NCBI GenBank assembly: GCA_017557005.1
Contig: JAFZFZ010000063.1
Coordinates: 1-64,000, forward strand
DNA length: 64,000 bases
Direction of reading: 5' to 3'
Source of the DNA: Bacteroidaceae bacterium
GTDB lineage: Bacteria; Bacteroidota; Bacteroidia; Bacteroidales; Bacteroidaceae
Of the stretch, positions 16,756 through 56,013 are shown piece after piece (the stretch's first letter is position 1; each line of letters begins with the position of its first letter). Both the position numbers and the translations under genes were made by a program. The notes under the pieces are model-generated. The model made no database searches. It was not told the DNA's origin and was given only the letters and a program-made list of their open reading frames with translations.

Positions 16756-17034
16756 TTATCGCGCAATGGAAATGATTGGCTCACCAAGAACGGATGAAAT
16801 TTTGGCAAGGGTGGATAGGGTAAAATTATGCCCTCCACCCAACCATTTAGAAACTGCTGCTTCGGATGTTCCTACACGGTGGGCAAATTCCTTCTGCGAT
16901 ACGCCAAGCTGATGGAGTTTGGCATCTAACTTGTCTGCAATGTCGTATGACCACTCCACTTGTTGCCTAACCTCTTTTGGAGTCTCGTCGAGGACCTGTT
17001 GGAAGAGGTTCATACCTTCAATGTCTTGTTTCAT
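16756..17034 (-). CDS. XRE-family antitoxin (HigA-like)
   Basis: A 92-residue DNA-binding protein with one helix-turn-helix: DKLDAKLHQLGVSQKEFAHR, then VGTSEAAVSKWLGGGHNFTLSTL (about residues 33-75). Such antitoxins bind the cognate toxin and repress their own promoter. The start codon overlaps the toxin stop by four bases (ATGA), so translation is coupled. Toxin-before-antitoxin order is that of higBA systems. The module is flanked by repeat arrays on both sides, suggesting it arrived as an insertion between tgt-side genes and the LptF/G permease. Confidence 0.88.
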   Translation of the reverse strand: MKQDIEGMNLFQQVLDETPKEVRQQVEWSYDIADKLDAKLHQLGVSQKEFAHRVGTSEAAVSKWLGGGHNFTLSTLAKISSVLGEPIISIAR

Positions 17035-17814: not shown

Positions 17815-17948
17815 GGTGAAAGGAACTGAAAACGATGACAAAAACGAAAACAAAAATAAAGCAAGCCGAACCAAACAAAAAATGGTAGGTAGTGAAGATT
17901 CCGATTAAAGAGGATATTTTCTCTGAACGAGCCTTAGAAATGTAACTT

Positions 17949-18027
17949 CCACCGCGGTGGCGCGAAAGTGTCACCGCGGTGGAAGCAAGACGCCACCGCG
18001 GTGGCGGAATCACGTCACCGCGGTGAC
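17949..18027. repeat. Palindrome array C: four CACCGCGGTG at exactly 22 bp
   Basis: Perfect palindromes with the core CACCGCGGTG are centred at 17954.5, 17976.5, 17998.5 and 18020.5, exactly 22 bp apart. The outer pairs differ but mostly remain complementary: CCACCGCGGTGG, then a core with T/G flanks, GCCACCGCGGTGGC, and GTCACCGCGGTGAC. Linkers are A/G-rich. No reading frame spans the array. Confidence 0.9.
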
Positions 18028-18157
18028 AGGAATTTTTTCAAGTCTGCACCAGGGGAAACGCATTATAAAAAAGTTATAATATACTTGATAATTCACACAC
18101 AAACAGCTCTTTTCACGACAAACAATGGATCTTCACGCAGAATATGAATATAAATTT

Positions 18158-20183: not shown

Positions 20184-21485
20184 ATGGATTTCTACGATCT
20201 TGACCTCAATGATGATGTGCTCGACGCACTCGACGCAATGAACTTTACCACCTGTACGCCGATACAGGAACACACCATACCGCCCCTGCTCGAGGGTCAC
20301 GACCTTATTGGCGTGGCGCAGACGGGTACGGGCAAGACGGCTGCCTACCTGCTGCCCATACTGAGCATGCTGAGCGACGGTGGTTTCCCCACGGATGCCA
20401 TCAACTGCGTCATCATGTCGCCCACCCGCGAGCTGGCACAGCAGATTGACCAGGCCATGGAGGGATTCTCATACTATGTGCCGGTGAGCAGCGTGGCCGT
20501 ATATGGTGGCAACGATGGCATACGCTACGAGCAGGAGCGCCGCGGACTTGCGCTGGGTGCCGATGTGGTGATAGCTACGCCGGGCCGCCTCATCAGTCAC
20601 ATCTCGTTGGGCAATGTGGACCTGTCGCGCACCTCGTTCTTCATCCTCGATGAGGCCGACCGCATGCTCGACATGGGTTTCTACGACGACATCATGCAGA
20701 TCGTGAAGCAGCTGCCCGAGAACCGACAGACCATCATGTTCTCGGCTACCATGCCCGACAAGATACAGAAGCTGGCGGCTACCATCTTGCGCAACCCCGT
20801 GGAGGTGAAGCTCGCCGTGAGCAAGCCTGCCGAGAAGATTGTGCAGACGGCCTATGTGTGCTACGAGGTGCAGAAGATGGGTATCATCAAGAGCCTGTTT
20901 CGCGACACGAAGCCCGAGCGCGTGATCGTGTTCTCGTCATCGAAGCTCAAGGTGAAGGAGGTGACTGCTGCCTTCCGCCGCATGAAGCTCAACGTGGGCG
21001 AGATGCATAGCGACCTTGACCAGGCACAGCGCGATGCCGTGATGCGCGAGTTTAAGAGCGGACGCATCGATATCCTCGTGGCTACTGACATCGTATCGCG
21101 CGGTATCGACATTGACGACATCCGCCTGGTGATCAACTACGATGTGCCGCGCGACTGCGAGGACTATGTGCACCGTATCGGACGTACGGCACGTGCCGGT
21201 GCCGAGGGCTGCGCCATCACCTTCGTGTCGGTGGATGATCAGTCCCGCTTCGCTGCCATCGAGGAGTTTATCGAGCGCGACGTGTTTAAGCTCCCCGTAC
21301 CCGAAGAGCTGGGCGAGGCTCCGGCCTATGAGCCCAAGAAGAGTAGCGGCAAGGGCGGCAAGGGCCGTGGCAGAGGTTCCCGTCGAGGTGGCAAGGGCCG
21401 TAGCACCAACCAGGGAGGCAAGAACCACCGCGGTGGCAAGAAACGCAAAGGCGGTGAGGCAAATGTTAATAAATGTGGAAAATAG
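20184..21485 (+). CDS. DEAD-box ATP-dependent RNA helicase
   Basis: RNA-unwinding ATPase of the RhlE/CsdA type, 433 residues. The helicase core is complete: Q motif FTTCTPIQEHTIP, Walker A AQTGTGKT at 45-52, PTRELA, DEAD at 156-159, SAT at 187-189, and the C-terminal RecA domain with RGIDIDDI and HRIGRTAR. The last 55 residues are a low-complexity Gly/Lys/Arg tail (GGKGRGRGSRRGGKGR) likely to bind RNA without specificity. It probably acts in ribosome assembly or mRNA turnover. Which named paralogue it is cannot be decided. It precedes the folding-factor cluster by about 100 bp. Confidence 0.95.
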   Translation: MDFYDLDLNDDVLDALDAMNFTTCTPIQEHTIPPLLEGHDLIGVAQTGTGKTAAYLLPILSMLSDGGFPTDAINCVIMSPTRELAQQIDQAMEGFSYYVPVSSVAVYGGNDGIRYEQERRGLALGADVVIATPGRLISHISLGNVDLSRTSFFILDEADRMLDMGFYDDIMQIVKQLPENRQTIMFSATMPDKIQKLAATILRNPVEVKLAVSKPAEKIVQTAYVCYEVQKMGIIKSLFRDTKPERVIVFSSSKLKVKEVTAAFRRMKLNVGEMHSDLDQAQRDAVMREFKSGRIDILVATDIVSRGIDIDDIRLVINYDVPRDCEDYVHRIGRTARAGAEGCAITFVSVDDQSRFAAIEEFIERDVFKLPVPEELGEAPAYEPKKSSGKGGKGRGRGSRRGGKGRSTNQGGKNHRGGKKRKGGEANVNKCGK

Positions 21486-55941: not shown

Positions 55942-56013
55942 AGTACTTACGGCTAAGTACTCGAGTACTTGTATGTCAGTACTGCAGTACTTAGCCTTCG
56001 GTACTCGAGTACT
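55942..56013. repeat. Palindrome array E: AGTACT-based palindromes at 22 bp
   Basis: Perfect palindromes AAGTACTCGAGTACTT (55955-55970), AGTACTGCAGTACT (55978-55991) and GTACTCGAGTAC (56001-56012) are centred at 55962.5, 55984.5 and 56006.5, exactly 22 bp apart. A leading AGTACTTA (55942) overlaps the first. It lies between the convergent DUF6078-like and calycin-like genes. Confidence 0.9.

Follow-up and report, generated by a model that had tools for sequence, protein, structure and literature searches.

The four-palindrome array and its setting

The window, i.e. the whole stretch of 64,000 nucleotides that was analysed, belongs to the genome of an uncultured Bacteroidaceae bacterium (G000; 2.58 Mb in 106 contigs, 83% complete), the named relatives of which are from herbivore guts. 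Four copies of the palindrome CACCGCGGTG lie at 17950-18025 with a start-to-start spacing of exactly 22 bp, which confirms the description given by the first-pass annotation, and a second array with another core is found further along the window. The features are as follows.

17925..17949, + strand: left flank, GAACGAGCCTTAGAAA-GTAACTT, partly common to the genome's other dispersed copies (alignment by eye)
17950..17959, no strand: palindromic site 1, CACCGCGGTG
17972..17981, no strand: palindromic site 2, CACCGCGGTG
17994..18003, no strand: palindromic site 3, CACCGCGGTG
18016..18025, no strand: palindromic site 4, CACCGCGGTG
18026..18049, + strand: right flank, ACAGGAATTTTT, partly common to the other dispersed copies (alignment by eye)
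55942..56013, no strand: second array with another core, TACTCGAGTA, TACTGCAGTA and TACTCGAGTA at 55958, 55980 and 56002, plus a half site at 55942; period 22

In the window, CACCGCGGTG is matched 5 times against 0.07 expected in dinucleotide shuffles, the only copy outside the array being a single one at 21426. When aligned by eye, the left and right flanks are a weak inverted repeat of each other. There are no convincing genes around the array, as previously noted, lptG being 915 bp away and a putative toxin-antitoxin pair 443 bp, counted to its nearer gene. No exact promoter box was seen near it on inspection, and a tblastn search found no remnants of lost HU genes there. Since a period of 22 is not divisible by three, the array is not a coding repeat, the origin which the annotation had named as speaking against its reading. 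The toxin-antitoxin module that had been placed beside the array corresponds to this putative pair, and its antitoxin-like protein (gene 16756-17034) contains an HTH_3 domain, so that the array might be the operator of this protein. This is extremely improbable considering the 443 bp between them and the fact that the genome's other arrays are not beside such a pair, for which reason the neighbourhood itself looks incidental.

A class of arrays with a shared architecture

The genome contains six CACCGCGGTG arrays, every one with exactly four perfect cores at 22 bp. Within the genus, the exact CACC array pair pattern was found in 6 of 19 genomes, and the 19 genus arrays that were read all have four sites, with one or two core changes in some. 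The annotation had proposed comparing such arrays with shuffled DNA, and the outcome bears it out: an unbiased detector (at least three similar palindromes, any period from 12 to 45), applied to 0.98 Mb of the same genome, returned 12 tandem arrays of palindromes, of which 11 have a period of 22 and one has a period of 21, against none in Markov shuffles. Their cores differ, and include CACCGCGGTG, TACTCGAGTA (from the second window array), CGCATATGCG, AACTNNAGTT and CTTCGCGAGG. Widening the detector to periods up to 60 added one array, of period 54.

Of 399 genomes from the family, 36, belonging to 11 of 30 genera, have four copies of CCGCGG at 22 bp with at most 3 mismatches, in very different surroundings; this search is bound to one core, some of its matches are ordinary minisatellites with more than 4 units, and the reversed control pattern matches few genomes. 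The genomes compared are mostly fragmented assemblies, and the score threshold for arrays was set against shuffles without calibration. Judging from these sequences, it is the architecture that is conserved rather than the letters of the core. Searches of plasmids, phages and viral contigs with the array gave no match. Another dispersed 22-bp repeat family in the same genus, TATCCRCGGATACGTRATGAAA, has about 4 units per copy (L087, L058, L061 and L085, in G002, G005, G008 and G006, respectively). The second window array has 8-base linkers and sits between convergent genes, and a diverged homologue of it is present on contig C43 (L153:6475-6570).

Arrays precede genes for HU-wHTH proteins

A 207-aa protein with a HU-HIG domain is encoded just downstream of several of the genus arrays. 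The HU-HIG family (Pfam PF18291), of which this partner of the array is a member, comprises proteins in which a HU domain is joined to a winged helix-turn-helix (wHTH), an Ig or a Gly-rich motif. The predicted model of the protein has a winged-HTH-like end, confidence in the AlphaFold runs on three sequences being moderate over the wHTH and low elsewhere, and its homologue in our genome also has a C-terminal match to a DeoR-like HTH. A single HU-wHTH sequence had no match among solved structures, while a HU-wHTH profile matched HU and IHF chains, over the HU part only.

When the genus was searched by protein, with the arrays disregarded, 28 of the 30 HU-wHTH matches fetched had an array upstream, and an additional set of 21 loci was largely in agreement. 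In a uniform test, a leader array of four palindromes at 22 bp was found at 47 of 60 long (at least 190 residues) and 0 of 20 short (fewer than 190 residues, wHTH absent by length) HU-HIG genes (Fisher p = 1.6e-10), a contrast which partly mixes taxa because most of the short genes are from other genera and only one is from within the genus. Control frames had an array in 12 of 500 cases, 9 of these 12 being purposely fetched array loci or a neighbour sharing the array. The cores differ between HU-wHTH paralogues, with CACCGCGGTG, CWYCGCGRWG, CATCGCGATG, CTTCGCGAAG, CGGACGCGTCCG, CAACGCGTTG, CCAACACGTTGG and AGAAAATATTCT among them. Outside the genus, arrays picked up blind with the CCGCGG pattern proved to be immediately followed by HU-HIG genes in G278, G393 and G313. 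Some long HU-HIG genes from other genera (L308, L313, L320 and L325) have arrays of period 21 instead of 22. A VapE-like gene is divergent from the array and the HU-wHTH gene at 10 of 47 loci (L024, L029, L034 and others), and is thus not general, and at L027 and L031 the array is followed by a few codons which by eye resemble a HU start.

The window array can be connected to one paralogue in particular. On contig C49, a HU-wHTH gene, the promoter of which is interrupted by an insertion-sequence-like end, is preceded by four copies of CACCGCGGTG at 22 bp, i.e. by the core and layout of the window array. Three relatives were all that a scan of contigs with the HU protein yielded. The four genomes in which a close relative (at least 74%) of this HU-wHTH protein is present are all among the 6 of 19 that have exact CACC array pairs (hypergeometric 0.004), and in G179 and G332 the HU-wHTH promoters carry arrays with the same core as the arrays dispersed in those genomes. 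In G087 the CACC array is matched dozens of times, yet no HU-wHTH promoter carrying one was found there; its loci L056 and L067-L080 show many dispersed CACCGCGGTG arrays of five sites with AT-rich linkers, many of them at contig ends. No partner was found for the TACT, AACT and CGCATATGCG arrays of our genome, and no HU-wHTH partner for the second window array (TACTCGAGTA/TACTGCAGTA) or its C43 homologue.

Promoter geometry and the nature of the sites

An exact Bacteroidetes -7 box (TAnnTTTG) is found within 70 bp before the first palindrome at 37 of the 47 HU loci with an array, against 2.3 expected from shuffles, mostly at a distance of 28 to 32 bp, and on inspection six more HU loci have TATCTTTA at the position of the box. 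The array therefore starts just past the presumed transcription start, a position which suits a repressor and from which we infer the sign of control.

An array placed in this way is probably transcribed, which would also agree with the remark in the annotation that the array as RNA would be a row of hairpins, and with such a row acting as a leader that steers translation or stability. Over the 47 HU-wHTH arrays, the fraction paired, counted from the centre, amounts to 0.77-0.85 at pairs 1-5, 0.66 at pair 6, 0.44 at pair 10 and 0.37 at pair 11, chance being 0.25, so that the tendency of the outer pairs towards complementarity, reported for the window array, holds for the class. Mismatches within pairs 1-6, in transcript orientation, are nevertheless G-U in 78 cases and A-C in 85, and this lack of a preference for G-U indicates DNA sites rather than RNA hairpins. 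The AT-rich nature of some cores (e.g. AGAAATATTTCT), the dispersed copies devoid of a promoter box and a Rfam search giving only microRNA matches far below threshold point in the same direction, making a hairpin leader very unlikely. For cross-pairing of flanks between sites, the signals from 19 CACC arrays were mixed, and the idea was abandoned following the G-U comparison.

As to which part of the protein reads the core, with the HU domain controlled for, core similarity tracks the recognition helix (35 representatives, partial Mantel r = 0.30, p = 0.0025, relatedness being controlled through the HU domain only), while in the converse test, controlling for the helix, it does not track the HU domain.

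Dispersed copies

Over 76 bp, the window array matches a copy on contig C5 letter for letter and one on C18 almost so, the similarity stopping about 25 bp out on either side. No array was found near lptG at any of 17 loci of relatives, the order of the genes upstream being different there. On this comparison of sequences, the window array looks like a recent dispersed copy. Genes are at a distance of about 300 bp or more from the dispersed arrays. Insertion-sequence-like ends are found about 25 bp or less from 3 of the 6 genome arrays (L006, L007 and L008, on C5, C18 and C49, respectively).

Such copies, including that in the window, could be a mobile element resembling a MITE or REP which carries the operator and has spread by transposition with no regulatory role, a reading compatible with an operator function for the copies at the HU-wHTH genes themselves. 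The identity or near identity with C5 and C18 and its ending about 25 bp out, the weak inverted similarity of the flanks (by eye) and the lptG loci of relatives lacking the array are all in its favour. Against it, no target-site duplication was recognised and no transposase partner was found, the number of sites is constant at four, and arrays unrelated in sequence share one period. Furthermore, one other dispersed copy occupies a syntenic place in three species, where 39 to 40 of 40 core positions are kept, 23 to 32 of 36 in the linkers, and left-flank identities of 167/244, 84/164 and 72/167. With respect to our genome, these alignments show that the cores are retained while the remainder drifts; the closer pair is alike throughout and tells little. 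Spread as a mobile element with no regulation is on balance rather unlikely.

Proposed mechanism

It is highly probable, from the sequence comparisons, that the window array is a copy of the DNA operator of the C49-type HU-wHTH protein, and that every paralogue gene carries a private four-site array in its leader. The array and its class, the link with HU-wHTH genes, the geometry at the promoter, the covariation of helix and core and the conservation at one syntenic site were computed directly; what is predicted is physical binding, dimer formation, DNA bending, the direction of regulation and any effect at the window locus. One dimer of the HU-wHTH protein (HU-HIG domain plus C-terminal wHTH) would occupy each palindrome, with the wHTH reading the letters of the core and the HU part presumably gripping or bending the DNA. 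A spacing of two helical turns would place the four dimers on one face, and the annotation's proposal that the sites share a face is supported by the period, which is 22 bp or, in a sub-clade, 21 bp. With every array in the leader of its cognate gene, right after the promoter, autorepression would be the most likely result. The window array would be a dispersed operator copy with the specificity of the C49 paralogue (CACCGCGGTG), and therefore a predicted secondary binding site of the C49 protein.

The same sites could instead have their chief role in folding or partition of the chromosome. HU is a nucleoid protein family, the dispersed arrays are distant from promoters and there are several HU-wHTH paralogues per genome, whereas the constant place after the promoter of their own gene argues for transcriptional control there; a mainly structural role is unlikely on these grounds. 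A related and equally speculative idea is an addressable chromatin, in which the many HU-wHTH paralogues of one cell would each wrap or bridge only the arrays with their own address, and dispersed arrays, that of the window among them, would anchor several parallel networks of folding or silencing.

Relation to known systems and implications

ArgR is a dimeric repressor with tandem operators, the 18-bp boxes of which are about 21 bp apart. The arrays resemble operators of this type in having palindromes about two turns apart within the repressor's own control region, and differ from them in having four sites, a HU-type fusion protein and many paralogues with cores of their own. The BrickBuilt MITE of Porphyromonas gingivalis consists of direct repeats of 23 nt in tandem, their number ranging from 1 to 22.8, with IS5-like terminal repeats (PMC4596501). 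Like our arrays, it is made of tandem repeats with a similar period that are scattered over intergenic DNA, in a related order, although the direct repeats of BrickBuilt are not described as palindromic sites (PMC4596501), and identity with it was rejected, the arrays having four sites at period 22 as opposed to 23-nt repeats in variable number (PMC4596501). P. gingivalis also has a 77-bp inverted repeat, giving rise to a stem-loop and an antisense RNA, together with the HU protein PG0121 (PMC8757827); as here, a HU protein and an inverted repeat are combined in one control locus, the repeat being a single long one and not a tandem array (PMC8757827). The annotation knew of no element with this layout, and we found no earlier description of such arrays or of HU-HIG DNA sites in open-access text, which is weak evidence of novelty; the window array is however not unique, and belongs to a diverse class linked to HU-wHTH genes. 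HU-HIG is known as a domain architecture, to which predicted DNA sites are added here.

HU proteins normally show little sequence preference in DNA binding. Many HU-domain paralogues appear to have acquired private DNA addresses by means of a fused winged HTH, which offers a likely function for a large uncharacterised family. As the address is spelled before each HU-wHTH gene, it would amount to a ready-made protein-to-DNA code, i.e. a natural set of protein-DNA pairs for reading the recognition code of the wHTH, and the effect of a sequence-directed DNA bender on transcription and chromosome structure would become testable in gut Bacteroidaceae.
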